The notes below the pieces were generated by a model. The model made no database searches, had not been told where the DNA came from, and worked only from the letters and a program-made list of their open reading frames with translations. 49,644 nucleotides of DNA from a virus: IMG/VR virus record IMGVR_UViG_3300033571_004463, positions 1-49,644 of that record, one strand, 5' to 3'. Shown here in pieces: positions 443-47,868 of the stretch. The translations under genes were made by a program, and so were the position numbers. Numbering within the stretch: the first letter of the stretch is position 1; the number at the start of each line of letters is the position of its first letter.

Positions 443-629
443 TGTCGTTTATTAAAATTTAGTGTCGATTAATGTCGATTTTAGTGTCGAAAATATTAGC
501 TTAACAATACTAAAAACGAAGAAATGTCGAAAATGTCGATTTTAAGTTCAGAATTTTGTGGAAGAAAAAATCCCACACGTTAAATAATAGAGAGAGAATA
601 AGGGAAATTTCAATTTTGACATTTGACAT
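443..629 (+). repeat. TGTCGA repeat module, copy 1
   Basis: TGTCG occurs at 443, 463, 473, 485, 525 and 534; all but the first are followed by A. Downstream, AGGGAAA lies 67 bases after the last copy and GAC triplets lie 84 and 91 bases after it. The same elements occur at the same distances in the module at 47682-47868, in the same orientation. Spacings of about 10, 20 and 40 bases would put many copies on one face of the helix. This is consistent with a repeated protein-binding site such as an origin or an early-gene control region. Confidence 0.75.
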
Positions 630-634
630 ACCAA

Positions 635-646
635 CCCACTTGTGGG
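635..646. repeat. Short inverted repeat before groEL promoter
   Basis: CCCAC (635-639) and GTGGG (642-646) form a 5-bp stem with a TT loop, ending 16 bases before the -33 box of the groEL promoter. It could be an operator. It does not match the CIRCE element of bacterial chaperonin operons. Confidence 0.4.
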
Positions 647-662
647 ATGGTATTTGAACATG

Positions 663-694
663 TTTGCAATTTCATTTTGTTCTTGGTATATTTG
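663..694 (+). promoter_or_regulatory. groEL operon promoter
   Basis: TTTG (663-666), a 20-base spacer and TATATTTG (687-694) match the Bacteroidota sigma-A promoter well. The start codon of groEL follows 19 bases later, leaving room for a short leader. No Shine-Dalgarno sequence is visible. Confidence 0.75.
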
Positions 695-713
695 TGACAT
701 CAAAATTTAATTT

Positions 714-2345
714 ATGGAATTTAAGTCAACAGGAATGTACAGTCCCAAGGACTTGACCTTGGGGGATGAAGGCAGAGCCCGACTGATGAATGGCATCAGG
801 AAGATGGCTTCTGCTGTGAAGAGTACTTTAGGGCCGAGTGGTAAGACGGTCTTGATTGAGGGCGCTGATGTGATTGGCGGATTGACGGTGACCAAGGATG
901 GTGTTACTGTTGCCAACTCGATTCAGTTGTTAGACCCGATTGAGAACCTTGCGGTTCGTATGTTACGTGAGGCGAGCAGCAAGACTGCATCATCTGCGGG
1001 TGATGGTACGACGACTGCTGTTGTGTTAGCCGAGGCGTTAGTTGCTTATGGCATGGAGATTTTGGAAGCGCATCCTGCGGTGAACCGCACGGAGGTGTTG
1101 CGCAAGTTGGTGGAGATAAGCAATGAGGTGGTGGAGGATTTGAGAAGGATGGCTCGCAAGCTTCGTAAGCGTGAGCTCTTGGACGTAGCCATTATCTCAG
1201 CGAACAATGACAAGGTGATTGGCAAGACGATTGCTGACGTGTACGGTAAGGTTGGCGCTGATGGCATTGTGATGGTTGAGAACTCTCAGACTCCTGACAC
1301 CTACTACGAGGTAACGAACGGATTGCGGATTGACAAGGGTTACTTGTCTCCTGTGTTTGTGACGGACATGAAGCGTGATGAGTGCGTGATGAATGACGTG
1401 TACGTATTGGTTGCTGACATGGAGATTGAGAACGTGTTGCAGATTGAGCGTGTGTTGAAGCACGTGATTGAGGCGAACAAGTCGCTGTTGATTATTGGGC
1501 CTTGTGGTCAGATGATGTTGAACACATTGGGTGCGAACAAGGTGAAGGGTCGCATTAAGGTTTGTGCTATTGACGCGCCGAGCTTTGGCTACCGTCAGAA
1601 TGAGTTGATGCAGGACATTGCTTTGAGCGTTGGTGCGAAGTACTTCAGCCACCGCACGGGTGATGACTTGAGCATCATTGGCCCTGAGGACTTGGGTTAT
1701 GTGAGCAAGGTGACTGTTGGTAATGACAAGACGGTGATGGTGGTGAGTGATGCCAATCGTGATGGTGAGGCAGTGGCTGAGCGCATTGAGCAGCTGCGTG
1801 GTGCTCACACTGAGGCGGTGAAAAAGGGCGATAAAGATTTTATCATGTCTCGCATTGCGATGTTATCGGGCAGCATTGGTGTTATCTTCGTTGGTGGTAA
1901 CACTGACCTTGAGCAGAAGGAATTGTACGACAGGATTGACGATGCCGTATGCGCTGTTCGCTCCGCTCTTGAGGAGGGCATTGTTGCGGGCGGCGGTAGT
2001 GCATTGTACTACGAAGCCCGTAGGCTTGAAAGGAAGCTCTCTGCTGAGACTTCTCCCACCTCGGCATACACTATTGCCACCAAGATGATTATGCACGCTC
2101 TACGCTCCCCATTTTTAACCCTCGTTGACAATGCGGGTTATGAGCCATCTACTCCTGACGAGCGTGTTGGTGAGTGGGGGTATGGATGGAACATGCGTGA
2201 CGGTTCGTTTGGTAACTTGTACGACATGGGTGTGATTGACCCGTTGAAGGTAACTCGCAGTGCGTTGCAGAATGCGGTGAGTGTTGCGGTGACGGTGTTG
2301 AGTACTGACGCGATTATTACATTAGCGAGAACATATGAGTCATAG
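714..2345 (+). CDS. groEL: Phage-encoded chaperonin GroEL (Cpn60)
   Basis: This is a 543-residue group I chaperonin subunit that would form the ring folding cage for phage or host proteins in the cytoplasm. The ATP-site signatures are present: TLGPSGK (38-44), KDGVTVA (61-67), LLDP with the D52 equivalent (72-75), GDGTTTA (96-102), and the catalytic-Asp region before EEGIVAGGG (420-428). KVTRSALQNA near the C-terminus is also typical. The apical domain is clearly divergent, and the Gly-Gly-Met tail of bacterial GroEL is absent, the protein ending in TLARTYES. The stop overlaps the next start. The order groEL then groES is opposite to the usual bacterial operon. The visible ATPase motifs suggest an active enzyme. 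Confidence 0.95.
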   Translation: MEFKSTGMYSPKDLTLGDEGRARLMNGIRKMASAVKSTLGPSGKTVLIEGADVIGGLTVTKDGVTVANSIQLLDPIENLAVRMLREASSKTASSAGDGTTTAVVLAEALVAYGMEILEAHPAVNRTEVLRKLVEISNEVVEDLRRMARKLRKRELLDVAIISANNDKVIGKTIADVYGKVGADGIVMVENSQTPDTYYEVTNGLRIDKGYLSPVFVTDMKRDECVMNDVYVLVADMEIENVLQIERVLKHVIEANKSLLIIGPCGQMMLNTLGANKVKGRIKVCAIDAPSFGYRQNELMQDIALSVGAKYFSHRTGDDLSIIGPEDLGYVSKVTVGNDKTVMVVSDANRDGEAVAERIEQLRGAHTEAVKKGDKDFIMSRIAMLSGSIGVIFVGGNTDLEQKELYDRIDDAVCAVRSALEEGIVAGGGSALYYEARRLERKLSAETSPTSAYTIATKMIMHALRSPFLTLVDNAGYEPSTPDERVGEWGYGWNMRDGSFGNLYDMGVIDPLKVTRSALQNAVSVAVTVLSTDAIITLARTYES

Positions 2346-2571
2346 GCTACACATAGAGAAGCGGGTGAGTTTGCCTCAGTTTGAGGCAGCTTGCCTTGGC
2401 GTTACCATGGATGGGGAGCGCAAGATTTATTCATGCAATGGCATTATTAAAATCCTTGAGCATGACGGATTATCGCTTGACGACGCAGTTGAGCATTTGT
2501 ATCAAAAAGTAATTCAGTATTGGGAGGGAACTAATGGCTCTCCTATATTTGTTTGGGAGGACGGAGAATGA
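2335..2571 (+). CDS. Unknown protein between groEL and groES (78 aa)
   Basis: I do not recognise this 78-residue protein. It overlaps the groEL stop by 11 bases and its own stop overlaps the groES start (ATGA), so the three genes look translationally coupled. It is mixed alpha/beta in appearance, with one central helix-like segment (LSLDDAVEHLYQKVIQYW) and two Cys residues, and no membrane segment. The position suggests a chaperonin accessory factor, but nothing in the sequence proves that. Confidence 0.75.
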   Translation: MSHRLHIEKRVSLPQFEAACLGVTMDGERKIYSCNGIIKILEHDGLSLDDAVEHLYQKVIQYWEGTNGSPIFVWEDGE

Positions 2572-2843
2572 AACCAATTGGAAAATATATTGTCAGTCAG
2601 TTGATTGACGAGGAGGTGGAGACAGCCTCAGGCTTGGTGTTATCGGGAGATGACGTTGACAACCTTCGGTATCGAAAAGCAACTATTGTGAAAGTAGGCT
2701 CTGACGTGAAGAATATCACGGATGGCAGTGTCATTTACTTTGACAAGGTGCAGAGCTTTACGATGGTGATTGACGGGAATCAGTACACTATTCTTCGTGA
2801 GACTGACGTAGTTCTTGTTCTAAGCGAAGGGTCTCCCGTTTAA
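2568..2843 (+). CDS. groES: Phage-encoded co-chaperonin GroES (Cpn10)
   Basis: This is a 91-residue Cpn10, the lid of the GroEL cage. It has the expected layout: an N-terminal strand with MKPIGKYIV, the mobile loop with ETASGLVLSG (the IVL-type hydrophobic anchor is LVL), the KATIVKVGSDV strand, and a C-terminal barrel with DGSVIYFDK and DVVLVL. An ATG at 2553 is in frame, but the start at 2568 gives the canonical N-terminus and overlaps the upstream stop as ATGA with GGAG just before it. The gene's end overlaps the end of the opposing wHTH gene by 56 bases. Confidence 0.88.
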   Translation: MKPIGKYIVSQLIDEEVETASGLVLSGDDVDNLRYRKATIVKVGSDVKNITDGSVIYFDKVQSFTMVIDGNQYTILRETDVVLVLSEGSPV

Positions 2844-3252: not shown

Positions 3253-3262
3253 TTCTTTTTAG

Positions 3263-3305
3263 TAACTTTGTAGCAAAGTTAATTGATTGCATGCTAACGA
3301 CCAAA
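3263..3305. promoter_or_regulatory. Divergent promoter within a palindrome
   Basis: TAACTTTGTAGCAAAGTTA (3263-3281) is a perfect 8-bp inverted repeat with a TAG centre. Each arm is a TAnnTTTG -7 box, one per strand. The leftward promoter also has TTTG (CAAA on this strand at 3302-3305) with a 20-base spacer. The rightward one has no -33 box at the right distance and may need activation. One protein bound to the palindrome would cover both -7 boxes. Confidence 0.7.
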
Positions 3306-4570: not shown

Positions 4571-4571
4571 C

Positions 4572-4579: not shown

Positions 4580-4586
4580 TGGTGTT

Positions 4587-4769: not shown

Positions 4770-4775
4770 TTAAAA

Positions 4776-5249: not shown

Positions 5250-5250
5250 T

Positions 5251-5412: not shown

Positions 5413-6608
5413 TGGCAAATGTAAAATTTTCTCAGTTCACATCTGATACCCCTGATGCAAATTCATTTTTTGTTGGGTACAATAGTAATACCAACGCAAA
5501 TATGCGTTTCAGTTTAGCTCAGCTATCTACTGCATTAGGACTTAGTAGCTATGTTACAGTGGCTACAACTCAAACTATTTCGGGGAGTAAGAGATTCTCT
5601 TCTTCTCTGTTGGTTGGTGCAGCGCCTTCTGTTACTGTTACTTCCGACATTAATTTATACAGTACTTCTGATAGCTTGTCGAGATGGGTATTTAACTCAG
5701 GTACATCTAACGTTTTAAAAGCGATTTCATTTAGAGCGGGCGACTTACGTAGATGGGAGATTCATGTTGAGGGGGCTGAGTCGGGTGGCAATTCAGGTCA
5801 GAACCTTCACTTCGTAAGATTTGACGATGATGGTAATCAGATTGAGAACGCGCTGAATATTAACCGTAGCACAGGTCACGTCCGTGTGCATCAGGACTTG
5901 AGATTGGATGGAGACCTGATTTTGAACGCAGGAGCGATGACAATTACAAATGCTCAGCTTCAGTATTTAGATGGGCTATCATCTAACCTTCAAACTCAAT
6001 TGGGCGGAAAAGAGCCGACCATTACTGCAGGAACAGCGTCTCAGTTTTGGAAGGGCAACAAGAGTTGGGCGACATTGGTAGCAGGTGACATCCCATCGTT
6101 AGATGCTGCTAAGATTACTACAGGAACAATCACGCCATCTTTATTGCCTAAGATTACAAGGGCCGTATCTATGGCTGCAGGTGCAGTTAGTAATGGTAAT
6201 AATACAAATGAGGAGGTATTGCAGACTCTTACTATCCCTGCGAATACATTGTCGGTAGGTGACATCTTGAAGGTTGGCTACTTGTTCTCGTTTAACTTAA
6301 GTGGTGGAGGAAAAACCGTTCGTTTGAAGTACCCGAATATAGGCGGAACTTCGCTTCCTACTGCGGGTACTACTATTAATAATGCCACTGCAGCCTTACA
6401 GACTGAGTTCATTGCTACTGTTGTAAATTCAACTACGTTAAGATTTGGAGCAACAAGTAATGCGGGTGGTTATGGCTCATCAACCACTGCAGGTATTAAC
6501 TTAACTGTTGACTTAACTCAGTCTATTGTATTTGTAGTTACAGGACAGAAGGCTGTATCGGGAGATACTTGTACTTGCGAGACTGCATACGTAATTTTAA
6601 TTAGCTAA
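5412..6608 (+). CDS. Tail-fibre-like protein 1 (398 aa)
   Basis: This 398-residue protein starts MANVKFSQFTSDTPDANSFF, a probable virion-attachment segment. A middle region follows with ISGSKRF and RWEIHVEG strands, a repeat-like joint (LSSNLQTQLGGKEPTITAG, then QFWKGNKSWATL), and a C-terminal beta-rich domain (about 265-398), likely the receptor-binding tip. The next gene has the same architecture and similar sequence. Host recognition is inferred. Confidence 0.7.
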   Translation: MANVKFSQFTSDTPDANSFFVGYNSNTNANMRFSLAQLSTALGLSSYVTVATTQTISGSKRFSSSLLVGAAPSVTVTSDINLYSTSDSLSRWVFNSGTSNVLKAISFRAGDLRRWEIHVEGAESGGNSGQNLHFVRFDDDGNQIENALNINRSTGHVRVHQDLRLDGDLILNAGAMTITNAQLQYLDGLSSNLQTQLGGKEPTITAGTASQFWKGNKSWATLVAGDIPSLDAAKITTGTITPSLLPKITRAVSMAAGAVSNGNNTNEEVLQTLTIPANTLSVGDILKVGYLFSFNLSGGGKTVRLKYPNIGGTSLPTAGTTINNATAALQTEFIATVVNSTTLRFGATSNAGGYGSSTTAGINLTVDLTQSIVFVVTGQKAVSGDTCTCETAYVILIS

Positions 6609-30527: not shown

Positions 30528-33500
30528 ATGAACGAACAAGCGATTAAAGACTCGTATGAATTGTTTAAAAGCGGCGGGTATAGCAAGTCAATTGATGAGT
30601 TTAAATCTCTGATAGCTTCTAATCCTCAGGCTCTAAATGATTCGTATGAATTATTTAAAAGTGGTGGGTATAGCAAGGATTTTGATTCTTATAAAGCGCT
30701 AATGGGCTTAACTGCTCAACCTGCGCCTGCTCAACCTGATAAAAAAAAAGTCGCTACGGCATTACCCTCGGCAGCGTCTTCATCGGAATCTGTTTCGACT
30801 AGACCAACAGAGCCAACAATCGCTACGAGAAAGCCTCAGACTACATCGTTTGGTACTTATGGCGTATCGAAGCCTCAGCCATCTACTGCTGCCTTTACGA
30901 AGCCTGTAGCGCCTGAGCCTGAGTCAATCTTAGGGCCTGTTGAGAAAGACGTGTCTGTTAAAAGAGACATCTCTGTCAATCCAAAACCGCTGCCTGCTGT
31001 TGCTCCAAAGACAACTGAGGTATCTAACTACTTCGATAAGTCACTTGACATTATTAATGAGGACTTGATGAACTCTGAAGAGAGTATGGTCGTACCTAAG
31101 CTGAACTACACGTTCGGGCAGTATGGCTTCAAGTTCTCTGAGGCAGGGCCAATGTTTGATGAGGTGAAAGTAATTTCGCCAAATGGGAAAGAGGAAGTGT
31201 TCAGCCTTGACAATTGGTTCAGCAGCTCAAGCTCTGAGGAAGCTGCTCGATTCAAGAAATTCATTAGCGAAAATAAGCCAACAAGTAAATTGTTAGAGGC
31301 TCGTGAAGGTCAATATGCTAAGCCAATCCTTAGTGAGGAGCAGTCAAAAGAAAATATCCTCAAGATAAATGCCGACACTGAATCTTTGAGCAAAGATATT
31401 AGTGAGTACACTCGTTTAGAAAATGAGCTGAATGCTCGGTTGAAAAACATTGAGTCGTTAACTCCTGAGCAGAAGACTGCATTGTTGCAATCAACATCAG
31501 CTTTGGAATTAAAAAGATTGGAAGTAATTCGTAAAGGAGAAGACATTCAGTCTCGTACCAAAATGCTCAATCAGGAGCTTGGTAATTATTCTAAGATGAA
31601 AGCCGAACAAGGAACTCCGATTGGTGCGCTTTGGAACTCAGTATTTGTTAATGGTATTGGCAGTGCTGTTAGTGGCCTTCTTAGAACATTAGGTGCATCG
31701 CAATCATTTGGCAATCCTGCCATGGAAACTGCGATGAAAGCTGCAGTTAAGCGAGGTGATTTTAATAAGCCACGTGAACTTCTTCAAGCTACGATTGGCG
31801 CAGAGTCAACGAGCAAAGAGTACATTGAAGATGTTAAGCAGAAGTCTTTCTTGGGCGGAGCTGTTTTGGGAGTTGCAGAGTCATTGCCTGCTATGTTAGC
31901 AGGGCCTGCGTCATTGCCTGCGCTTATATCTCAAGGCGCTGATGTGGTATATCAAGAGATTGATAAGAATCCTGATGCTCAAGATATGCCCGAATGGAAA
32001 AAGGCATTGTTTGCAACTACAATTGGTGCGGTAGCAGGTTACTTAGAGAATTTGGGTTTCTCGAATGCTATTGGGCAGAAGGGATTGCTTAATGGTCTTG
32101 TTGCCAAGTTCTTCGCACGTGGAGCTACAAATGTAAGTGGCAAAGCATTCAATGAGTTTGTTGACCAAGAGGTAAAAAGCTTGATTGCTAAGGGCGTTCT
32201 TAGAACTACTGCGGGGGGATTGGCCGAAGCTGAGACAGGGGTTCTTCAGGAGATTTCTGACGTTGGCTTAAAGGAAGTGTTTAATGCCATTGAAGGTAAT
32301 AAGACATTTGAAACGCCTGAGAGTGCGGGTCAATTTGCTTTGCAAGTTCTTGAGGCGGGAGCATCTGAGGCTGTTGGTGGTATTATCATGAACTCTGTCG
32401 GAGCTGTGAGCAAAGGATACCAAGAGAATAAGTTTGAGAATGTTCTTGATGAACAAGTTAATCTATTGCACCAAATCTCATCTGACCCTACGTTCATTGA
32501 TTCCTATAAGTTGAAGATTAAGGAAGCTGTTGCCGAGGGCAAGATGACTACTGAAGAAGGGGAAAATCAAAAGGCTTCATTTGATAAGATGATTGGGCAG
32601 CTACGCTCAATCCCAAGTGACATTTCTCCTGCGGGACAGAAGGAGGCACTTCGTCTATTGAAGGAAAGAGATGCGCTACAAGCTAAGATTGATAGCTCAG
32701 ACCCTGACTTAGTTACGAGAGAGAAAGCTCGCGTTGCCGAGATAAAAGAAAAGTTAAACAAAATATCTGAAGATTATGCCGTTCAAAAGCCAAGCACAGA
32801 GGAAAGCGTGTTACGCGATGAAGAGTCCCAAGTGGGATTGCAAGAAATGGGAGAAGGAAACGCCAAAGGGCAAGCCGCTCCCCAAGAAGATAAAGCCTAT
32901 GTCACAGCGCAAGAAGTAAATGATAACGTAGCAAAGGCAAATCCTGATGCTAGTGTATTGTTAACTCCTGATGGCGATAACTTGAGCCTGACTGCTGTTT
33001 ATATAGGCAAGGAGAATCGTGGCAAGGGCATAGGGACAAATGTCCTTAATACTGTAAAGTCAGAGGCTGATAGGGTAGGCAAAAAAATAGTTTTAGATGC
33101 CACAAATGAATTGGATTCTGAAACTGATTTAGAAAGATTAGGTAATTTTTACGAAAGGAATGGATTCAAAAGAGTTGGTGAAAACAAATTTGAATACGCC
33201 CCACAAGAAACTGTAGCCCAAGAAGAAGTAGCTGCCGAGCCGTTAGAGCAAAAGTCAAGTCGATTGCTTGATGCTATTGACACTGCACGTCAGGCAGGTA
33301 CTGATGGCATTGATGCTTTGAACAGCGCTTTGGCAAACCTTAGAGGCATTGCATCTGAGCGAGTGAAGCAGATTGGTAATAGGATTGATGACTTACAACA
33401 GAAGGTTCGTGACTTAACCAAGTCATCTACTGTTCCTTCTGCTACTCTATCCGACTTAGCAGGAACGCAAGTAAACTACAATGGAGAGTCAGGTACATTG

Positions 33501-36500
33501 AATGTATCTGAGGGTGGTGCTGTTACATTTGAAACGCCCAATCAGATCATTGAGATTGAGAATGCTACGCCAACATCAATGGCATCAGACTTCAATATCG
33601 CTGCGCCCAAGCCTGCTATGGAGATTACTCCGACTACCGACCGATTCATTGACAACGACAATGTAGTCATCAATAATATTGAGTATGGCATTCAAGCTGA
33701 TAACAATGGTAATGTTGTTGGCTTACAACTCAAGGACGGAAGCAATCAGGTATTGACCAACCCACAGCTTTTAGTTAAGGCAGAGGCCATCAGAAATACT
33801 GAGGGTAAAGTTGCTATTACAACTGAGACGACCATCACTCCTGAAGCTCAATCACAGATTGACGCACTTAATGGTCAGATTGATGCGCTTACAAATGAGC
33901 GTGGCAGAATTGAGCAAGCTACTGCTGAGCCTGTCACTGCTGAGGCTACGCCAACTGCAGCAGAGAAAAGATTTGCAGGGAATGTACTTGCTGCTACTCG
34001 TGTTGCAGCTGAAGATTTGGGCAAGTTGGTAGCAATACTAACCAAGGCAAATAAGAATGTAAAGGTTGTTACTGATAAGGCCAAGATGGTTGCCTTCCTT
34101 GTTAAGAAGGGCTTATCTCCTGAGCAGGCTAATCAAGTGAAGGGCGTTCGCGTTGGCGATACTGTTTACATCAACCCTGATTTGGCAACTGTTGACACAC
34201 CTATCCACGAGTTTGCGCACATTTGGGGTGAGCTTTGCAAGAAACAGCGTCCTGAGTTGTGGAAGCGTGGGCTATCCTTAATTACCAAGTCAAACTACTA
34301 CAAGGATTTGTTGGCGAAAATCAAGGCTGACCCTAATATGTCAAAGTTGTACCCTACTCCTGAGGCTATCAAGGAAGAGGCTTTGATTCAGGCTATTGGT
34401 GAGCGTGGTGCTGTCATCTTTGACGACAATAAGTTGCAGTTGTTGTGGAACAATTGGGTTGCTGCGTTTGATAACTTCGTGAAGAAGCTATTGGGACTTC
34501 CGATGACTGCCGACATCACGAAGATTAAGCTCAGCGAGTTCTTAGATATGGCTGCTACTGAGGTGTTGACAGGTAAAGGAACAGGTGTCGGTGGTGAGAT
34601 GACCATTGAGAAGACCAAGGCTGCGAAGGACTTTGAGTTTCAAGTTGAGGCTTGGCATGGTAGCCCACATAGATTTGACAAGTTCTCATTATCAAAGATG
34701 GGAACAGGAGAGGGAGTTCAAGCATTTGGTTGGGGGTTGTATTTCACTGACCTAAAGAATATTGCAGAAGGTTATGCTAAAAACCTAAGCCAAACTACCT
34801 TTGATGGTAAGCCATTAGACGAGTTAGATTTTTTTGAAAACCTTTTAGGCTCATTAGATGCAGAATCTGATGAGTTTTACAATTTAGATAAAGGCACAAT
34901 AACTAATCTTAAAAAATTTAAGGCGTACATTGATAATTCTGTTGAAAAATTGCAGCAAGATATCCTTAAGATAAATAAGGATAATGTTAAATATCAAAAT
35001 TTAGCAGATAAATACAGTTATCAGGATGTAAGTAAGGATAAATTAAAAGCAGATATTGAAATACATAACCAATTTAAGCAAGTAGCCAATGCTTCTTTGG
35101 ATAAAGAAGACATGGTTAATAAAGCTTTACCTACATTTAAAGCAAAAGCAGATGCTGCCCGTAAGATGATTATGGAAATAAATAAAGGTAAAAGCAACAG
35201 GGAAAATATACTGCAATCTATTCTTGATTATGATTACAGAAGAGCCAATAGTACGCTTAATTATTACAAATACATAAAAAACAACTTTGATAAGTTTAAT
35301 CTTTCACGTAATCTTTACAATGTATCACTTCATGAAGGCAAGACTCCTGACCAATACACTTTCTTGGAATGGGATAATTCTGTAAGCAAAAAAATTAAAG
35401 ATATTGTAAAAAATAAATTAACAGAAGAGCAGTACAAAGAAGGGTTTTATGATGTTATAAAATCACTTGATATTAGTGAGGAGAGATATATTAGAAACGG
35501 GGAAGATTTGTACAATGGTCTTGTGTTAGCATTGGGTTCGCAAGAGGCTGCATCAAAATTTCTTTTAGAAAACGGCATTGATGGCATCAAATATCCTGCT
35601 GAGTCAATCTCTCGTGGCGCTACATCAGACACAGCAAGAGGGTTTAACTATGTAGTGTTTGATGAGAATGCCGTTAAGATTCAGGAAGCTATTCAATTCC
35701 AAGCTCAGCAGTCAGCCAATGACCTCGCTAAGATTGTCAATGACGCTATCAAGGCTAAGCTAACAAAGACTCAGATTGTTGACATCTTGGTTAAGCGTGG
35801 TGGCTTAACAGCTACCGAGGCAAACCAAGTGTACAATGACGTTAAGGCTAAGAATCCTATCTCAATTGCAACAGCAGGCACAACTCCTGCCGCTACCACT
35901 ACCACTGTAAAGCCGAAGAGTAAGTTCGTTGACAACATCGCCAATGCTATTGAGCAAATGGCAGGTGGTAATGTAACCCCTGAGGTGAAGGACGCTATCG
36001 TTAAAGAGATTAACACCGCTCGTCAAGCCATCAAGAAAGCTCTCATGTCTGAGATGGCATTGAAAAAGCAACTCGCTTCTATCGTAAAATCACTTGGTGT
36101 CTCAAACAAAATCACTGCGACACAGGCCAAGTCAATCATCACTGCATTCAGTAAAGTGAATGTGATGAGCGATTCATCTGTCAATAATTTTATCGACAAG
36201 GTGATGGACATCTTTGATAAGGTAAATGCCAAGACAGAAGCTGAGAATCGTTCCTCGCTTATCAGCAGTATTGCTGACCTTGCTAAGAAGGCTGCCCGTT
36301 CTGCCGTTACATCTACAGGTAAGTCACGTGCTAAATCATTGGATGCCGTAGGACAAAGCTTCTTCAGGCAAGTAAGCAAGATTGTAACGCTTGCCGCGAA
36401 TAATGACATCAATGGCATGGCCGTTATCTCTAATGACTTGGCGAATGCTCAGAATGAAATCAATGATGCCGTTCAGAAGGAGCTTAATGGCGAGCAATTG

Positions 36501-39002
36501 ACAGCTGCCGAATCTGACTTGTTGGATTTGGTATATGCGTTCGATGCATTCGGTGATATTCTTAACATGTCCGAACAAGAACTGCAAGCATTGCTTGATG
36601 ATTTGAAAAATGCGAAGAGCACTTCCATCCAATCAATGAAAGCGTTCAGACATAAGCAGGCGTTGCAGAAGAAGGCCATCGTTGATGCCACTGATAACAA
36701 AGTGAAGCAACTAAACCCTGCTATGTTCAATGCTGATGGTTCTTTGAAAGGTGAAGAACAGCGCAAGCAGAATAGAAAAGCAATCCGCAATGAGCTGAAT
36801 AAGGGTAAGGTATTCAAGGCTCTGAAGATGTACATCAATTCATTTAATCTGAAAGGTATCAATGGTCTTATCAGGACATTGGCAAATACCATACAGAATA
36901 TTGAAACGATTTCTACCATCTTAGGCAAAGGCAAAGACAAGTTCTTCATCAAGAATATTTATGATAAGCTATTCGTAGCTGAAGAGAATCAGCGAAGAGG
37001 GTATCAGAAGAATATTAAATTGATGGAAACACTAGCAAAATCTGTTGGCTTCAAAAACTTTGATGCATTGGTTGATGCACTTACTACGGGTCGTCAATAT
37101 GAGTTTGAAGTGAATGGACAAAAGTCTTTCTACGACAAGGATGAGTTGATTAGAATGTATGCGCTGAGTAAGAATAAAGAGCAGAGAGCTAAGTTGAAAA
37201 AGCAGGGGATTGATGACAACGCTTTGGCAGAAATCAAAACAATCTTAGGCCCTCAGCTAATTTCATTTGCTGACAAGGTTGTAGATTACTTATCGACTAC
37301 CTATTATGACGAGACAAATTCAGTGTATGTTTCTGAGTACAACACAAGATTGCCGAGGATTGAAAATTACTTCCCTACAATTACTGAGAAGACTGATACT
37401 ACCGCTGACATTCTATCAGGCGATTTGTCTCGAATCTTTATGGCAGATACTGCATCTGCACTTAAGCAGCGTGTTGACAAGAACTCTGACATTATCCTAA
37501 GCTTTGGGTTTATCAATGCATTGGAGGGTCACTTCCAACAGATTGAGCGATTCAAAGCATACGCCCCTACTGTACGTGAGATAAACTCTACTTTCTCTTC
37601 ACCTGCATTCAGTGCATATTTGGATGAGACAGGAACTAAGAAGTTGTTTAAGTTCTTGGTAAGCAACGCCATCTCCCCTGATGCGGGTAATCCATTCCCA
37701 ACAACGAAGAGTTCTATCTTTGATAAGTACGCAGGCTTTGCATTGGCATTCAAGCTTATTCAAATCCCTAAGCAGGCAATCTCTGCAGTCGCTGCATTTG
37801 AGGATTACCAATTCAGAAAAGGTAAGTACACTCCTGCGCTTGAGCTAATCATGTTCACTAAAGACCTAGCTGTAACGATTGCCACTTTACCTAAGCAGGT
37901 GAAGAAGGCGCGTGAAATCTCAGCGTCATTCAATGAGCGATATGAAGAGGGAATGAAGGGTAACATTGCTAGTACAACATCAGGCCGTGGTGGCCTTCGT
38001 TCTTTGAAGCAGCGTAGTGGTATCTTGAGTAAGCTATACCGAAGATTCAAGTCACTTGCATCATTGCCAACCACATTTGGGGATACGCTATCCGTGATGG
38101 GGTACATGGCCGTTTACAATAGGAATATTAAGAATGGAATGGATCCTGAACAGGCAGCCATTCTGTTTAACAACTACAACAAGACGCTTCAATCTCGTAA
38201 TGCTGTTGATAGAACTGCCCTTCAGAACAATAAAGAACCTTTGTTGAAAGCGTTCACTATGTTCGGCAGTAGCGCATTTCTTCAGATGAATAAGGTGATG
38301 CAAAGCTCATCGGCAATCATCTCTAAGTCAGCTGAATACGTTAAGACAAGAGATGCATCTAAGTTACCAACTGTTAAGGAGTACCGAGCATTTATTCTTA
38401 ACTTAGGAGTAGCGAATGCTCTGTTTGCTTGGGCATCTTATGCGTTCAAGATTATGCTTGGTGATGACGAGGATAGAGAGAAGGCGTATGATGAGATGTT
38501 GAAGGCTATGCTTGGCTTAAACTTGCTCTATCAATTGCCACTATTGGGTGATGCCATTGAGCTAGTAAACGCTGCAATTGATGGCGATGAATTATCTCTT
38601 AAAGGTACAGGTCTAAACCCATATACTACCATTGCCGTGAAAGCAATCAAGGGTATTAAGAATGATGACTACACTCAGGCTGCTAAGCCTATCTTGGAAT
38701 TGGTTGCGGGTATGTCATTTGACCCATTCATTGGGTTGTACGAATACTTTGAGGGCTCTGAGCCAACTGAAGAGAGTTTGTATAAGGTATTTGGTATCTC
38801 TAAAACGTATCAGCCTGAGTCAAATGAACTTACTCAATCTGAAATTGAAGCCATGGAGGCTGAAGACAAGAAGGAGATGAAAGAGTTTGACCCATTCTTG
38901 TATGAGTCTATCTATGGTGAGCAAGAAAGGGAAGAGAAGAGGATTAAGGAAGAGCAGAAAGCGCTCGAAAAATTATATGGAGAAGAAGAAGAGGAGGATT
39001 AA
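30528..39002 (+). CDS. Giant polyvalent protein (2824 aa): GNAT, Zn-peptidase, ADP-ribosyltransferase
   Basis: This 2824-residue multidomain protein of the polyvalent class is probably packaged and injected. Visible parts: a 13-residue exact repeat DSYELFKSGGYSK at 8-20 and 38-50; hydrophobic segments at about 362-390, 440-467, 490-515 and 603-630; a GNAT domain (about 815-890, ENRGKGIGT as acetyl-CoA loop); a metallopeptidase-like site HEFAH at 1227-1231; an ADP-ribosyltransferase (WHGSPHRF at 1376, GWGLYF at about 1401-1406, closing NYVVFDE at about 1707-1713). A long AT-rich insert lies inside the transferase. The C-terminal kilobase codes for helical regions of the large polyvalent-associated type, two hydrophobic stretches (about 2620-2645, 2661-2687) and an acidic tail. 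Confidence 0.85.
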   Translation: MNEQAIKDSYELFKSGGYSKSIDEFKSLIASNPQALNDSYELFKSGGYSKDFDSYKALMGLTAQPAPAQPDKKKVATALPSAASSSESVSTRPTEPTIATRKPQTTSFGTYGVSKPQPSTAAFTKPVAPEPESILGPVEKDVSVKRDISVNPKPLPAVAPKTTEVSNYFDKSLDIINEDLMNSEESMVVPKLNYTFGQYGFKFSEAGPMFDEVKVISPNGKEEVFSLDNWFSSSSSEEAARFKKFISENKPTSKLLEAREGQYAKPILSEEQSKENILKINADTESLSKDISEYTRLENELNARLKNIESLTPEQKTALLQSTSALELKRLEVIRKGEDIQSRTKMLNQELGNYSKMKAEQGTPIGALWNSVFVNGIGSAVSGLLRTLGASQSFGNPAMETAMKAAVKRGDFNKPRELLQATIGAESTSKEYIEDVKQKSFLGGAVLGVAESLPAMLAGPASLPALISQGADVVYQEIDKNPDAQDMPEWKKALFATTIGAVAGYLENLGFSNAIGQKGLLNGLVAKFFARGATNVSGKAFNEFVDQEVKSLIAKGVLRTTAGGLAEAETGVLQEISDVGLKEVFNAIEGNKTFETPESAGQFALQVLEAGASEAVGGIIMNSVGAVSKGYQENKFENVLDEQVNLLHQISSDPTFIDSYKLKIKEAVAEGKMTTEEGENQKASFDKMIGQLRSIPSDISPAGQKEALRLLKERDALQAKIDSSDPDLVTREKARVAEIKEKLNKISEDYAVQKPSTEESVLRDEESQVGLQEMGEGNAKGQAAPQEDKAYVTAQEVNDNVAKANPDASVLLTPDGDNLSLTAVYIGKENRGKGIGTNVLNTVKSEADRVGKKIVLDATNELDSETDLERLGNFYERNGFKRVGENKFEYAPQETVAQEEVAAEPLEQKSSRLLDAIDTARQAGTDGIDALNSALANLRGIASERVKQIGNRIDDLQQKVRDLTKSSTVPSATLSDLAGTQVNYNGESGTLNVSEGGAVTFETPNQIIEIENATPTSMASDFNIAAPKPAMEITPTTDRFIDNDNVVINNIEYGIQADNNGNVVGLQLKDGSNQVLTNPQLLVKAEAIRNTEGKVAITTETTITPEAQSQIDALNGQIDALTNERGRIEQATAEPVTAEATPTAAEKRFAGNVLAATRVAAEDLGKLVAILTKANKNVKVVTDKAKMVAFLVKKGLSPEQANQVKGVRVGDTVYINPDLATVDTPIHEFAHIWGELCKKQRPELWKRGLSLITKSNYYKDLLAKIKADPNMSKLYPTPEAIKEEALIQAIGERGAVIFDDNKLQLLWNNWVAAFDNFVKKLLGLPMTADITKIKLSEFLDMAATEVLTGKGTGVGGEMTIEKTKAAKDFEFQVEAWHGSPHRFDKFSLSKMGTGEGVQAFGWGLYFTDLKNIAEGYAKNLSQTTFDGKPLDELDFFENLLGSLDAESDEFYNLDKGTITNLKKFKAYIDNSVEKLQQDILKINKDNVKYQNLADKYSYQDVSKDKLKADIEIHNQFKQVANASLDKEDMVNKALPTFKAKADAARKMIMEINKGKSNRENILQSILDYDYRRANSTLNYYKYIKNNFDKFNLSRNLYNVSLHEGKTPDQYTFLEWDNSVSKKIKDIVKNKLTEEQYKEGFYDVIKSLDISEERYIRNGEDLYNGLVLALGSQEAASKFLLENGIDGIKYPAESISRGATSDTARGFNYVVFDENAVKIQEAIQFQAQQSANDLAKIVNDAIKAKLTKTQIVDILVKRGGLTATEANQVYNDVKAKNPISIATAGTTPAATTTTVKPKSKFVDNIANAIEQMAGGNVTPEVKDAIVKEINTARQAIKKALMSEMALKKQLASIVKSLGVSNKITATQAKSIITAFSKVNVMSDSSVNNFIDKVMDIFDKVNAKTEAENRSSLISSIADLAKKAARSAVTSTGKSRAKSLDAVGQSFFRQVSKIVTLAANNDINGMAVISNDLANAQNEINDAVQKELNGEQLTAAESDLLDLVYAFDAFGDILNMSEQELQALLDDLKNAKSTSIQSMKAFRHKQALQKKAIVDATDNKVKQLNPAMFNADGSLKGEEQRKQNRKAIRNELNKGKVFKALKMYINSFNLKGINGLIRTLANTIQNIETISTILGKGKDKFFIKNIYDKLFVAEENQRRGYQKNIKLMETLAKSVGFKNFDALVDALTTGRQYEFEVNGQKSFYDKDELIRMYALSKNKEQRAKLKKQGIDDNALAEIKTILGPQLISFADKVVDYLSTTYYDETNSVYVSEYNTRLPRIENYFPTITEKTDTTADILSGDLSRIFMADTASALKQRVDKNSDIILSFGFINALEGHFQQIERFKAYAPTVREINSTFSSPAFSAYLDETGTKKLFKFLVSNAISPDAGNPFPTTKSSIFDKYAGFALAFKLIQIPKQAISAVAAFEDYQFRKGKYTPALELIMFTKDLAVTIATLPKQVKKAREISASFNERYEEGMKGNIASTTSGRGGLRSLKQRSGILSKLYRRFKSLASLPTTFGDTLSVMGYMAVYNRNIKNGMDPEQAAILFNNYNKTLQSRNAVDRTALQNNKEPLLKAFTMFGSSAFLQMNKVMQSSSAIISKSAEYVKTRDASKLPTVKEYRAFILNLGVANALFAWASYAFKIMLGDDEDREKAYDEMLKAMLGLNLLYQLPLLGDAIELVNAAIDGDELSLKGTGLNPYTTIAVKAIKGIKNDDYTQAAKPILELVAGMSFDPFIGLYEYFEGSEPTEESLYKVFGISKTYQPESNELTQSEIEAMEAEDKKEMKEFDPFLYESIYGEQEREEKRIKEEQKALEKLYGEEEEED

Positions 39003-39409: not shown

Positions 39410-39575
39410 CGTCGATATTTTTCAGTAAGTACCGCAGCTCCTCCATAAGTTCAAATACCTTTTCTTTAGCAACGTCTATCTCGTTATCGCAGACGTGCTC
39501 ATAAATGCAAGTGACAATGTCATGCATATCTGAGGTAATGAAACCTATCTCTTTTGCTTTTGCGGCTCTACTCAT
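39393..39575 (-). CDS. Hypothetical helical protein (60 aa)
   Basis: This 60-residue acidic protein is essentially one or two helices (SDMHDIVTCIYEHVCDNEIDVA, KEKVFELMEELRYLLKNID). It overlaps the downstream gene by 17 bases and the upstream one by four. It could be an adaptor for either neighbour; no family is recognised. Confidence 0.6.
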   Translation of the reverse strand: MSRAAKAKEIGFITSDMHDIVTCIYEHVCDNEIDVAKEKVFELMEELRYLLKNIDDDFRD

Positions 39576-40111
39576 AAGCTGAATCTGCGTGCCGTCTGTA
39601 ACATCTTCTTTACAAAGAAATCTTTCTCATTATTTGGGACACTTGTCTCAATCTCTGTAAGAAGCTCTTCGTATTTTCGTCCGATTGCAACGATGGCTTT
39701 GTTCTTCTCTTTCCACAAAGATAACAGCTTAATTTCTTCCTGCAATAGGAGGATGGTATTTTTTAATTGCTTATTCTCAGCGTCTTCCATGTCCTGAATG
39801 GGAGTATGGAACGCAGTTGAAACAATCTCAAACTTTTTTCTGACATTCCTATCCATATTCATGTACGATTCAATCGCACTTAAATGGTATATGATTGTGG
39901 TATGGTCGTACCCCATCTTGTTTCCAATCTGCTTGAGCGTGTGACCGCATGAGCGAAGAATGAATGATGATATCATCTTGGCTTCAGATACCAATCGCTC
40001 TCTTGTCCGTCGAGTGATGTCTGCGCCAATGGTTGTCTTGCAGATAAATACCAATCTCTCGTATTGATAATCAATATCCTCTAAATACTTCAGTTCTAAT
40101 TCCGTGTTCAT
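39572..40111 (-). CDS. Stand-alone DnaA domain IV-like DNA-binding protein
   Basis: In this 179-residue protein, residues 36-85 resemble the C-terminal DNA-binding domain of DnaA: SEAKMISSFILRSCGHTLKQ, then IGNKMGYDHTTIIYHLSAIE. DHTTIIYH (69-76) matches the DnaA signature DHSTVIHA. There is no AAA+ domain. The rest is a charged coiled coil (about 110-155) and a basic C-terminus. It could bind phage origin repeats or compete with host DnaA. The two TGTCGA modules in this window are candidate targets, untested. Confidence 0.75.
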   Translation of the reverse strand: MNTELELKYLEDIDYQYERLVFICKTTIGADITRRTRERLVSEAKMISSFILRSCGHTLKQIGNKMGYDHTTIIYHLSAIESYMNMDRNVRKKFEIVSTAFHTPIQDMEDAENKQLKNTILLLQEEIKLLSLWKEKNKAIVAIGRKYEELLTEIETSVPNNEKDFFVKKMLQTARRFSL

Positions 40112-44728: not shown

Positions 44729-44729
44729 G

Positions 44730-45119
44730 TCAATATGTTTTGCCGTGTAAGCGTGGACGACTTCGGTTGTAATTCAACTTGGCATTGATATGGAAGTTGA
44801 TGTCAATCCCCAATCCGCCACTCATGTCAAGCAATCGAATGATAGCGTCAGCAATCTCATCCTCAAATGTGTCCTTGATGTTCTCCTTAAATGCAATGTT
44901 CTCGTCTGACTCATCGAACCCTGCCGTGGCAATGAACTTGTAGTCATCAAGCTTCGCATTCCTATCCTTGCGGTGTGCCTCAATGGCCTCACCCAATTCG
45001 CTAACAACTAACATAAGCATCTCACCTACGTTGCGCTCGCTATCCCAAAATCCCTTGGCTAAATTATCCAAGTAGATCATCTTGGCCGACTCCGTCAGCC
45101 CCGTTACAATTTGTTTCAT
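44730..45119 (-). CDS. MazG-like NTP pyrophosphohydrolase
   Basis: This 129-residue all-alpha NTP-PPase has catalytic acids ELGE (E41, E44) and DEIADAIIR (E88, D91), then the typical ending INAKLNYNRSRPRLHGKTY. It would hydrolyse nucleoside triphosphates to monophosphates and pyrophosphate, for example to clear altered dNTPs or (p)ppGpp. The position just downstream of the primase-helicase fits a nucleotide-metabolism role in replication. Confidence 0.82.
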   Translation of the reverse strand: MKQIVTGLTESAKMIYLDNLAKGFWDSERNVGEMLMLVVSELGEAIEAHRKDRNAKLDDYKFIATAGFDESDENIAFKENIKDTFEDEIADAIIRLLDMSGGLGIDINFHINAKLNYNRSRPRLHGKTY

Positions 45120-45270
45120 ATTTAAAATTTATTAAGTAATTACATTTCTCTCCATCAAACGGCGTGTCATCAAAGAACCGCATCATCTTTTTAATCGGCC
45201 CTTGAAACCGATAACAGTTGTGCCTGAATGGGCATCCAATCCCCAAGCACATAGTTAAATCATTTGTCAT
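45064..45270 (-). CDS. Small Cys-rich protein (68 aa)
   Basis: This 68-residue protein has Cys at CLGIGC, C19, GEKC and TNC, in the layout CxxxxCPxRxxCYRF...PFDGEKCNYL. This resembles short zinc-binding proteins of Bacteroidota phages, usually uncharacterised. It overlaps the MazG-like gene by 56 bases and the primase-helicase by four. Confidence 0.65.
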   Translation of the reverse strand: MTNDLTMCLGIGCPFRHNCYRFQGPIKKMMRFFDDTPFDGEKCNYLINFKYETNCNGADGVGQDDLLG

Positions 45271-47672
45271 AGCTCCATCTCTGTTTGCTTATCAACCAAT
45301 TTCTTCCATCGAATCCAACGGCCGAGGCTGTCACGCCCCTCGTCGGCAGGGATGCCGTACTTAAAGATGGCATACGACTGCAACCATTTGTAGAACTTAG
45401 TCCTGCTAATAGTCATCCTCGCTTTCGGGCCGTAGTCAGGGTACTCCTCAATGAATGAATTGTACAAGTCCATCTTGTAGATAATCCCCTCCATCGCTAG
45501 CTCCCTGTTCTGCTCCATCCCTTCAACCAATCCACACCACTCGATAAACTCATGGCATGTCTCAGCGCTCAGCTGTCTCACGTTCAAGTTAACGAACCTG
45601 CTCTTCACTAATCCCGTGTTCAAGTATCCCTGCAAGCAACCAATCATATAGTTGTCAAACTCACACCAATCGTCATCGTTCCAATCGCTGAATAACAACT
45701 TACCAAACTCATCAAGCGGAGTGAATGTCTTGCTGTAATACTGATGCAGCTCAAGCTCCCACTTACGGCGGGCGAATGAGTTACCGCTACCCCTGATGGC
45801 ATAGTTCGTAGTGATGGCAATCTTCGGTGACTTGCTGAATGGTATCTTGATGGCATCCTTGTTCTTCTTCTCAAGCGTCAAGCCCTCCGTTACTACGCTG
45901 AACAAACGCTCGAAGTCAAAGTGTCTCTTCACGTCATCAAAGCAAAGTATCTGAGTGTCTGCTGATACGAGTTGATACGCAAAGCTACGCTCAAAAGCGA
46001 ATGACTTACCGTCAATCACCACTAATTTTTTCATCTGCGACAAGGCGTTCATGAAGATACCCTTACCTGTACCACCCTCAGGGTTATCACTTATCACCTC
46101 GTCGTTTAAGATAACGGCAGGACAGAACGATAAGTTCTTGTGAGCGTGAAGCATGTACCCTATCGTGCTCTCCATTGAACGGACACGCTGCTCGTCATTA
46201 CCGCAGATGTTCCATACAAAGCGTCGGTAGTCACACGCATCAGACCAACCACACATGGTAAAGTTGCGGTCAATCACGTGGTCTTTCCACACATACCCAC
46301 CTAAGTCCAAGTAGTCAATCGGAATAATCTCAGATGCGGTAATCTTCACCGCACAATTGCGGTAATAAAGATAGGCCGCCTCCTTGCTGTCCTCGATGAA
46401 GTAGATGTCAACCGTTGACAACAGCGATAAGAACTCCTCCTTGAAGAATCTCGTTTGGTCAGCGAAGTAATTGTACACCGACATATCGCCGAGGTCAAGC
46501 AGGTAGTCAAGCACGTAGTCCTTTATCTCCTTCTCACTCGTGTGGTCAATCAAGTTGTTCGTCACCTTTACGAACACGTAGTTCTTACTACCCTCAGGGC
46601 AGTACTTGTAAAAGCCGTTGTCCTCTAAGAACTGTTTGAACAGTACGTGGACAATCTTAATCATACCCTTGTCGTTCTTCGACCAATACACCTGCTTGGC
46701 ATTCTCTTCCTCAATTCGCTCAATCACCGACTCCGCTGTCTCGTGGTCTAACGCATTATCCATGAGCAATGACTTGACCTCAGCACGGGATGCGCCACGT
46801 CTCAGTTTCAGCCGAGCTTGATTTAAGCGCTCCTCGTCCTCGTAGTAACGCGTTCCATGCGAAGCGGTGTCTTGGTATGCCGAGTCAATCGTTCGTCCAA
46901 TCTCGGTCAAATTAAAGCTTCCATCGGCGTAGCTACCCAACACGTAAGAGGCAAGGCTCTTGTTGACACCAAAGTCATTGAACGCACGGGCTAAGATGTA
47001 GCAGTTATGATTGCGCTGTCCTTCGACCATTGGGTACTTCTTCTCCCACCACTTGATAAGAATCTCAACAATCTTATTCTCGTCCGTGATAGGGATGGTA
47101 GGTCTGTCCCTGTACTTGCTCTTCTCTTGGTACTCAGTCTCGTCAATCTGTGTCCATACCGAAGCGGTAGGGTTAACGTAGATGAGCGGGTCATACGACT
47201 CGTAGCAAACACGTGATAAGTTCTTGCTCGTCTTGTCAAAGTACGGAGAGTTGAAGTGCTTCTCAAGTGAATTGAAATAGTTCACGTGGTTGTCAGCATC
47301 GGCAGGTACTTTAACCAATACCTTCAAGCCATTGCCCGATGGTGAAACGAAGACCGAGTAAACAAACTTGTTCTTCGATAGGCGCTCCTTCTCCTGAAGC
47401 ATCTCCTTCTGCTTGGTGTATCCATCAAAGTCCAAACAGATTAGTCCGCTGTGCTCCATCAAAGAGGAGTCAGCACGTTTATTGAAAGTCCCGCTGAAAC
47501 AAATGGCAGGTAACTGCTTCTTTAGTTCGTTGCGGTCTGTCTTATCCTTCTCATTGCGGATTCGTAATACCAAATCCTTTGACGTACCATTGCGGATACG
47601 GTCGAAGATAACTGTAACGTCCCTAAAGAACGGTGCATCAGTATCTTTTATGCTCTTGAATATCGTTACCAT
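45267..47672 (-). CDS. Primase-helicase, BT4734-like N-terminus plus SF3 ATPase
   Basis: This 801-residue replication protein has an N-terminal BT4734/VirE-like region (about 1-190, with GLICLDFDGYTK and SPSGNGLKVLVKV), then a PriCT-like helical part (about 195-290). A third region is followed by an SF3-type ATPase with Walker A GGTGKG (about 535) and Walker B ILCFDD (about 575), then TTNYAIRGSGNSFARRKWELEL, the arginine-finger region. The domain order matches phage and plasmid primase-helicases of Bacteroidota. The start codon is ten bases from the nearest TGTCGA repeat. It probably drives DNA synthesis, though no polymerase is visible here. Confidence 0.88.
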   Translation of the reverse strand: MVTIFKSIKDTDAPFFRDVTVIFDRIRNGTSKDLVLRIRNEKDKTDRNELKKQLPAICFSGTFNKRADSSLMEHSGLICLDFDGYTKQKEMLQEKERLSKNKFVYSVFVSPSGNGLKVLVKVPADADNHVNYFNSLEKHFNSPYFDKTSKNLSRVCYESYDPLIYVNPTASVWTQIDETEYQEKSKYRDRPTIPITDENKIVEILIKWWEKKYPMVEGQRNHNCYILARAFNDFGVNKSLASYVLGSYADGSFNLTEIGRTIDSAYQDTASHGTRYYEDEERLNQARLKLRRGASRAEVKSLLMDNALDHETAESVIERIEEENAKQVYWSKNDKGMIKIVHVLFKQFLEDNGFYKYCPEGSKNYVFVKVTNNLIDHTSEKEIKDYVLDYLLDLGDMSVYNYFADQTRFFKEEFLSLLSTVDIYFIEDSKEAAYLYYRNCAVKITASEIIPIDYLDLGGYVWKDHVIDRNFTMCGWSDACDYRRFVWNICGNDEQRVRSMESTIGYMLHAHKNLSFCPAVILNDEVISDNPEGGTGKGIFMNALSQMKKLVVIDGKSFAFERSFAYQLVSADTQILCFDDVKRHFDFERLFSVVTEGLTLEKKNKDAIKIPFSKSPKIAITTNYAIRGSGNSFARRKWELELHQYYSKTFTPLDEFGKLLFSDWNDDDWCEFDNYMIGCLQGYLNTGLVKSRFVNLNVRQLSAETCHEFIEWCGLVEGMEQNRELAMEGIIYKMDLYNSFIEEYPDYGPKARMTISRTKFYKWLQSYAIFKYGIPADEGRDSLGRWIRWKKLVDKQTEMEL

Positions 47673-47681
47673 AATTAATTG

Positions 47682-47868
47682 TGTCGAGCTGTGTCGATTT
47701 TGATTCTTGAATGTCGATTTTTATGTCGATAAATTTTTGTAACTAACTGAGTATTAATATCAGTGTCGATAATGTCGTTTTTAAGTTCAAATTCTAGTGG
47801 GAAAAAATAATAAGAGTAATAAATAGTAGAGAGAGAGTAAGGGAAACCATAAAATTGACACACGACAT
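47682..47868 (+). repeat. TGTCGA repeat module, copy 2
   Basis: TGTCG occurs at 47682, 47692, 47712, 47724, 47764 and 47773; all but the last are followed by A. As in copy 1, the last copy is followed by TTTTAAGTTCA, AGGGAAA 67 bases later, and GAC triplets at 84 and 91 bases. Only the order of the first two spacings differs (10 then 20, against 20 then 10 in copy 1). It lies directly upstream of the leftward primase-helicase gene. Confidence 0.75.

Follow-up and report, generated by a model that had tools for sequence, protein, structure and literature searches.

The sequence analysed here, referred to as the window, is the full 49,644 nt record IMGVR_UViG_3300033571_004463. It carries two intergenic repeat modules, M1 and M2, which lie 5' of groEL and 5' of a primase-helicase gene, respectively (Table 1). 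Each module contains six copies of the box TGTCG, all on the plus strand. In M1 the boxes start at positions 443, 463, 473, 485, 525 and 534, and in M2 at positions 47682, 47692, 47712, 47724, 47764 and 47773, resulting in spacings of 20, 10, 12, 40 and 9 nt and of 10, 20, 12, 40 and 9 nt. Moreover, AGGGAAA is read at +67 and GAC at +84 and +91 from the last box of both modules. A preliminary description of this DNA had reported the arrays with these spacings, their span and orientation, and the offsets of the blocks that follow, all of which the coordinates confirm. It had called the repeat TGTCG(A). Six TGTCG are present in each module, but the full TGTCGA is found in only five of the six boxes per module, the first box of M1 and the last box of M2 being TGTCGT.

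The same description considered the bases between the boxes diverged and the geometry selected. The spacing is indeed conserved, but M1 and M2, judged by their sequences, are homologous copies and not merely like-spaced sites, because they align with 75% identity over 137 nt; in register they agree at 136 of 260 positions. TGTCG as such shows no excess in the window (68 copies versus 67.9 expected; for TGTCGA 20 versus 20.9). More than four TGTCG per 110 nt, however, were seen in none of 200 dinucleotide shuffles of the whole window, and six copies were reached in none of 2000 local shuffles of either module. A chance origin of the clustering, which a motif common at random would have implied, was therefore rejected. 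In the window each module is bordered by a terminator-like hairpin on one side and by the start of the next operon on the other, and M2 starts 10 nt from the start codon of the primase-helicase gene. An Rfam scan of the window, which bears on whether the modules are RNA elements, gave nothing at the gathering score.

Table 1. Modules, genes and other features of the window.
Feature	Position	Strand	Basis or remark
M1 forward boxes, six TGTCG	443..538	+	sequence
M1 AT-rich stretch, ends in TAATAGAGAGAGAATA, common to both modules	539..600	+	sequence
M1 AGGGAAA block and two inverted boxes (TGACA at 617 and 624)	601..628	+	sequence
M2 forward boxes, six TGTCG	47682..47777	+	sequence
M2 core separating the box groups	47740..47763	+	nears IHF site YAANNNNTTGATW family-wide; two mismatches in the window
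M2 AT-rich stretch, ends in TAGTAGAGAGAGAGTA	47778..47839	+	sequence, AT fraction
M2 AGGGAAA block and two inverted boxes (TGACA at 47857, CGACA at 47863)	47840..47867	+	sequence
Primase-helicase (801 aa), proposed initiator that binds the boxes; N-terminus PF08800, then PF19263 carrying SF3-type motifs, C-terminus a predicted winged helix	45267..47672	-	Pfam, motifs, models
Predicted winged-helix domain, about residues 697-790; K733 codon at 45474-45476	45303..45584	-	structure prediction, covariation
Terminator-like hairpin with T run, directly 5' of M1	285..311	+	read from sequence
Terminator-like hairpin of the upstream leftward gene, borders M2	47879..47897	-	read from sequence
groEL, first gene of the rightward operon after M1	714..2345	+	annotation search
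Exonuclease (PHROG exonuclease VIII / DUF3799), M1 side of M2	48200..48934	-	annotation search
Sak-type single-strand annealing protein, M1 side of M2	48931..49533	-	annotation search
DnaA domain-IV-like protein, 179 aa; considered, unsupported as box binder	39572..40111	-	domain match, covariation

A search with the primase-helicase returned at least 600 stretches, at least 572 of which encode relatives, and the best 80 were taken on. The upstream regions of 74 of these 80 were inspected, and most of them show variants of the M2-type array. A module profile built from 73 upstream regions, window M2 included, was then run on 35 records, namely the window, G001, MW202828 and 32 others. Including the window, 33 of the 35 records have two same-strand modules when the cut-off is E < 0.02, and 31 still have them when it is E < 0.001; the M2 matches arise partly by construction, since the profile derives from M2 regions, and the M1 matches are the independent ones. 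The weakest M1 matches are those of G024 (0.014) and G026 (0.0017). A single module was found in G034, a 47.5-kb record, and none in G025. When both strands are considered at E < 0.02, the sole match outside the module regions is the repeated end of the circular G006; opposite-strand matches in G016, G017 and G022 lie within about 250 nt of the M1 match. In the 27 records that have both modules on one stretch, M2 and M1 are 8.7-15.3 kb apart, a range that counts main-strand matches only and omits the opposite-strand ones.

In the relative G001 (60,151 nt) M1 and M2 are both present, and their boxes are spaced as in the window. The window record itself is probably incomplete, because this near relative has about 10 kb more beyond the two modules. 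M1 is also present in the short contig L003; pattern matches in L004 and L005 turned out not to be modules. Among 20 further records the profile detected M1 in 12 (E below 0.001), and a looser word scan gave M1 candidates in two more, L283 and L284. M1 was not found in the remaining L277, L279, L281, L285, L287 and L335, although in some of these six, assumed circular or cut by the record end, it may lie outside the stretch. Thus, the paired modules are a real, deeply conserved and usually paired element. Regarding the phages that carry them, 23 records of a phage collection match the primase-helicase, but only MW202828 does so over most of its length, and the search of this collection revealed no cultured close member. 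Since the other matches are mostly Flavobacteriia phages or come from fecal samples, Bacteroidota are suggested as hosts. In a literature search we found no account of replication origins in these phages.

Most predicted open reading frames that lie left of M2 or in the interval from M2 to M1 point leftward, and most of those beyond M1 on its right point rightward. The orientation of the modules is constant although the operons they precede run in opposite directions. This bears on the explanation that the arrays are operators, bound by the primase-helicase or by a repressor, which control the primase and the groEL/late operons and are not origins. Initiators are commonly autoregulated, and the position of each window module between hairpin and first gene, with M2 only 10 nt from a start codon, is in line with such a role. 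The fixed orientation is not; moreover, forward and inverted boxes on either side of an AT-rich stretch are more in keeping with an origin, and the protein that tracks the boxes best (see below) is the primase-helicase and no regulator. We therefore consider it unlikely that the modules are operators instead of origins. The early-gene operators of the preliminary description may nevertheless coexist with an origin, given the short distance from M2 to the primase-helicase start codon.

The anatomy of the modules was compared across the family. Forward boxes read TGTCGATTTTA in many genomes. The pairwise distances between TGTCG copies fall at 9-12, 20-22, 30-32, 39-42, 49-53, 60-63, 72, 81-82 and 91 nt, and the gaps between these classes are empty. 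Phase coherence is 0.83 at 10.25 bp, the top of ten periods, for 155 distances from 73 primase-upstream loci; these loci are related, hence the distances are not independent. Box distances follow the DNA helix, and what relatives conserve is a helical ladder, not the one fixed spacing pattern whose absence from related phages the preliminary description would have counted against its geometry. In the upstream regions of relatives, a core like TAACTnATTGATTATTAATACTAA is found between the box groups. An exact IHF-type core, based on YAANNNNTTGATW, which we take to be the consensus of the IHF site, occurs in 13 of 33 M2 and 20 of 33 M1 modules versus about 1% of mononucleotide shuffles. In the window itself the M2 core has two mismatches to this consensus and the M1 core matches it poorly.

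The stretch after the forward boxes is AT-rich, with a mean AT fraction of 0.83 in M2 and 0.77 in M1 versus 0.61 for the genome (33 genomes). It is followed by GAGAGA/AGGGAAA-like blocks and then by inverted boxes. Scoring the distal 90 nt of M2 in 118 genomes typed by box base 4 (77 C-type and 41 T-type) gave 119 inverted boxes, compared to 51 (sd 7) in mononucleotide shuffles, and at least one such box is present in 61 of the 77 C-type and 28 of the 41 T-type genomes. In the distal stretch of M1, for which there is no shuffle control, 29 of 33 genomes have an inverted box and 8 of 33 a forward box. Iteron sets are thus present on both sides of the AT-rich region, the distal set being short. 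Two side observations concern the surroundings of M1. TAG/TAC triplet runs, which presumably resemble DnaA-trio elements, adjoin M1 of L399, L373, L377, L384 and L386 (loci L415, L419, L418, L413 and L414), and these genomes also encode DnaA-like proteins. In several relatives (loci L413, L414, L418 and L419) a tRNA-like sequence lies directly 5' of M1.

A comparison of 161 distinct primase-upstream regions shows that the box word differs between lineages and is repeated inside many of them (TGTTGATTT, TGTTGACTTT, TGTCGACTTT, TGTGCTTACTTT and others). The same word is found in both modules of G023 (TGTTA), G026 (TGTTG), L308/L312 (TGTTG/TGTTA), L373 (TGTCG) and L286 (TACCTACTTT). In G024, TGTGAC words are common to both modules, while M2 also retains two TGTCG. 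An extreme case of a changed word is seen in M2 of L286 and in L407 near 6100-6250, where TACCTACTTT is repeated in place of TGTCGATTTT; M2 also has TGCCGACTTT. The C/T fractions of M1 and M2 correlate across the 26 genomes in which each module has enough boxes (Spearman 0.52, p 0.006, not corrected for ancestry). Furthermore, inverted boxes follow the type of the genome, with 77 C-form and 8 T-form boxes in C-type genomes and 15 and 19, respectively, in T-type genomes (Fisher p 2e-7). The box words of the two modules, forward and inverted, thus tend to change together.

We searched for the protein that reads the box by testing which alignment columns follow box base 4. The first test, from which nine mixed genomes of the 118 were excluded, covered 1,045 columns: 785 of the primase-helicase (108 genomes), 96 of a short DnaA domain-IV-like protein (92 genomes) and 164 of a long one (83 genomes). 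The top three columns are primase-helicase residues 733, 772 and 732, all in the C-terminus. Lysine 733 (K733) is present in 74 of 74 C-type but in only 4 of 34 T-type genomes, a T class that includes mixed arrays; in the strict version, restricted to uniform arrays, all 41 genomes with only TGTC have it, as against 2 of the 29 with only TGTT. When genomes were typed by majority, the four best of 1,038 columns were residues 772, 733, 769 and 732, again in the C-terminus of the primase-helicase. Finally, in a tree-aware test of 490 columns, using a tree built from primase-helicase residues 1-700 and hence without the C-terminus, K733 ranks first with a score of 0.57, the next column scoring 0.42, and four of its five changes fall on the 10 branches with a box switch. 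Box base 7 associates with residues 743, 758 and 761, although its C class comprises only 7 genomes and columns outside the C-terminus score nearly as high. From these sequence comparisons, the C-terminus of the primase-helicase appears to recognise the repeats.

The preliminary description had named phage DnaA-like proteins among the candidate binders. In such a scheme the small DnaA-domain-IV proteins would bind the boxes and load the replisome as in oriC. The reverse complement of TGTCGATTA matches TTATCCACA, which we take to be the DnaA box, at 7 of 9 positions. Matches to PF08299 (E ≤ 0.01) are present in 35 of 36 records of one set and in all 20 of another; in 27 and 16 of these, respectively, they exceed the curated cut-off. 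The IHF-type core and the triplet runs beside some M1 point in the same direction. When aligned and tested for covariation, however, these proteins gained no support as the main reader: neither the short nor the long one has a column in the top 20 of 1,038 for box base 4, which instead tracks the winged-helix C-terminus of the primase-helicase, and in the first test their best scores are 0.34 and 0.31 versus 0.72 for K733, a comparison tempered by the fact that they occur in fewer genomes and are more variable, which lowers their scores. In G001, moreover, the short DnaA-IV protein has lost the usual recognition sequence, whereas the boxes are canonical. A DnaA-like system is thus quite improbable. 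The proteins may still act in an auxiliary role: for box bases 5, 6 and 9, where the associations are weak, they supply 14, 5 and 11 of the 20 best columns. As a side observation, these phages encode one or two, rarely three, small DnaA domain-IV-like helix-turn-helix proteins, which do not track box base 4; a short paralogue lies at 53095-53208 (-) of G001.

Of the Pfam families, only PF08800 and PF19263 were found in the primase-helicase at E ≤ 0.01. Its alignment contains the conserved stretches GGTGKG, ILCFDDV and ITTN, presumably the Walker A, Walker B and C motifs of SF3 helicases. The C-terminal 187 residues, modelled with 59 sequences, give a mean pLDDT of 73.7 and a pTM of 0.53, with blocks of 79 to 93 in the last domain, and the order helix-strand-helix-helix-strand-strand is that of a winged helix. 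In this model the motif's second helix begins with K733, and its third contains residues 758 and 761. VIA-align of the C-terminal model yields many winged-helix matches, including parts of RFX, ORC and Cdt1, whereas Foldseek with the C-terminal domain alone returned nothing under E 0.001. The full-length model has a mean pLDDT of 73.3 and a pTM of 0.44, its helicase parts being below 50. It matches AsfvPrimPol (best E 8.6e-8), the SaPI5 primase-helicase 7ola (1.6e-4) and MPXV E5 (3e-4), with the low TM-scores expected from a loosely placed multidomain model. A sequence search of the PDB with the primase alignment gave one weak, irrelevant match and did not find SaPI5. Motifs and fold matches fit a D5-type helicase, and a DNA-binding role is proposed for the C-terminus with its predicted winged helix.

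The modules are most likely initiator-bound iteron origins. More specifically, we consider it probable that M1 and M2 are paired replication origins whose boxes are read by the winged-helix C-terminus of the primase-helicase, and among the options that the preliminary description had offered, paired origins are the best reading. The anatomy, the conservation in pairs, the phasing, the tendency to joint box change, the residue-box covariation and the predicted fold were computed directly; DNA binding, unwinding, origin activity and a division of labour are inferred. The winged-helix C-terminus would bind the boxes, which would share one face of the helix. The AT-rich stretch, with forward boxes on one side and inverted boxes on the other, would be the site of unwinding, where the helicase would load itself and the primase would start synthesis, a single protein reading both M1 and M2. 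By analogy to SPP1, one origin may fire first and the other may fire later, or may stall forks and thereby start recombination-dependent replication with the exonuclease and Sak encoded between the modules. A more far-reaching version, which we put forward tentatively and with slightly more doubt than confidence, envisages SaPI-like twin origins, in a widespread group of uncultured phages, served by one self-loading primase-helicase. Repeated switches in winged-helix specificity would have dragged both origins, with forward and inverted boxes, to new words (TGTCG, TGTTG, TGTTA, TGTGAC and TACCTAC). A natural specificity code would consist of residue 733 together with the beginning of the recognition helix, and the second origin would mark the switch from circular to concatemer replication.

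A number of observations weigh against paired origins read by the primase-helicase. As to the modules, six of the scanned upstream regions lack any TGTCG, and L088 shows no array. L365 has no M2 array and L343 a single M2 box, while both have M1. In G025 and L335 neither module was found, yet the C-terminal domain is kept, so either the pair is not indispensable group-wide or the boxes have changed beyond recognition. In this G025/L335 branch a short box-free stretch, in which no array was found, separates the start of the primase-helicase gene from the upstream gene. Forward boxes also occur in the distal stretch of M2, in 24 of 77 C-type and 19 of 41 T-type genomes, and the box types of M1 and M2 differ in MW202828 (MW), G013, G015 and G018. 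As to the reader, K733 is by majority typing present in 77 of 78 C-type but also in 8 of 40 T-type genomes, and G035 and L359 retain it despite all-TGTT arrays. Only four of the ten inferred box switches coincide with a change of K733; the other six include MW and G035, which are mixed once M1 is counted, L088, which is arrayless, and L286 and L346, which have few typable boxes. Primase-helicase columns outside the C-terminus (taken as residue 715 on) make up 13 of the top 20 with majority typing and 11 of 20 in the first test; because such columns score as well, ancestry confounds part of the signal, and shared ancestry carries much of the covariation. Finally, the C-terminal model matches the P4 origin-binding domain 1ka8 (Z 5.2, 72 residues, 3.3 A), but this match is tied with many other winged helices and such a Z shows the fold at most.

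Some of these exceptions are relevant for a bipartite origin, in which one module starts replication and the other is an obligatory distant cis-activator. Phage P4 has two such distant cis sites, ori and crr. The frequent pairing and constant orientation would suit this arrangement, as would the retention of M1 in L365 and the fact that K733 goes with M1 and not with M2 in MW and G013, where the modules differ. On the other hand, the anatomy is complete in M1 as well as in M2, down to the AT-rich stretch and the inverted boxes. We regard a bipartite origin, which overlaps with paired origins and shares the recognition part, as rather unlikely. Phased direct repeats are also found in centromere-like sites, and the modules could in principle be partition, packaging or other protein-binding sites unrelated to replication start. 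This is extremely improbable in view of the covariation with the primase-helicase and of the primase, exonuclease and annealing genes that adjoin M2 in the window. No observation hints at packaging, at which no test was directly aimed.

Regarding the wider context of the paired origins, all eight records tested carry a Sak gene, which lies toward M1 at a distance of 1.4-1.9 kb from M2. The GC-skew analysis proposed in the preliminary description was carried out on four-fold sites of leftward genes. In 23 of 32 genomes (p 0.009) skew is higher between M2 and M1 than left of M2, but gene content and direction confound it. Since the genes switch direction at the same point, skew carries no information here, and as a proof of origins it was rejected. 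A larger difference for leftward reading frames right of M1 (18 of 19) may include spurious reading frames and was not used. Elsewhere in the window, TTTG and TATATTTG, 21 nt apart, are found at 663-695 (+) in the gap between M1 and groEL, with similar words in L003; this pair presumably resembles the Bacteroidota promoter consensus. A 2824-aa protein with matches to acetyltransferase and DUF3990/ART-like domains is encoded at 30528-39002 (+) and is possibly a polyvalent protein delivered with the DNA. Judged by eye, the end of the window (49560-49644) looks like a cut-off tRNA on the minus strand, although no gene was called there.

The analysis provides a sequence-level map of the probable replication start in a large phage group for which no cultured close member was found, and it names the protein and the residues likely to read the site. 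Natural variants are available for studying how initiator and origin specificity change together, and the paired layout with one proposed initiator makes the reason for having two origins testable. What is new is the pairing with a fused D5-type initiator and a covariation that points to the reading domain.

We finally compared the modules and their proposed initiator with known systems. Elemovirus (Flavobacterium phage elemoE 6-9C) resembles the window in its leftward early genes with exonuclease and annealing protein and in its groEL, terminase and portal genes. It differs in having a separate annotated replication initiation protein and a TOPRIM primase/helicase; the primase match in its record covers residues 2-283 only, and a module search of this record, which is labelled partial, found none, a point in favour of the paired-origin reading. 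In Staphylococcus aureus pathogenicity islands (SaPIs) the iterons are recognised by the C-terminal domain of Rep, as stated in a passage of PMC7581432, and according to part of PMC6092414 two iteron sets flank an AT-rich region in the origins of phage-inducible chromosomal islands (PICIs). The modules of the family resemble these elements in the forward boxes, the AT-rich stretch, the inverted boxes and often an IHF-type core; SaPI5 Rep likewise combines primase and helicase domains, and its structure is among the fold matches. In contrast to the SaPI/PICI origin, which excerpts of PMC7581432 and PMC6092414 place directly 3' of rep, the phages analysed here carry a pair of modules separated by about 10 kb, with M2 located 5' of the primase-helicase gene; apart from the repeated end of G006, the profile gave no match elsewhere. 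The alpha protein of P4, as described in part of PMC4234260, binds origin repeats with a winged helix and then unwinds and primes. The primase-helicase with its predicted winged-helix domain would act in a similar way, and 1ka8 is among its fold matches. The P4 alpha primase is, however, of the bacterial TOPRIM type, according to the same source, whereas the N-terminus here is PF08800 and the full-length model matches AEP-type enzymes; no TOPRIM-type domain was found in Pfam at E ≤ 0.01 or among the best folds. SPP1 has two repeat-bearing origins 12-13 kb apart, both bound by one protein, the second of which is thought to stall forks and to start concatemers with an exonuclease and an annealing protein (passages in PMC6316719 and PMC3485210). 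The layout of two modules with repeats and AT-rich element resembles SPP1 oriL/oriR, as does the presence of exonuclease and Sak genes next to M2 on the side that faces M1. SPP1, however, uses a separate initiator (gp38), a loader, a DnaB-family helicase and the host primase, where we propose a single chain of another type as reader, helicase and primase. By analogy, the best reading is one of recognition as in SaPI Rep or P4 alpha, combined with a layout like that of SPP1 oriL/oriR.

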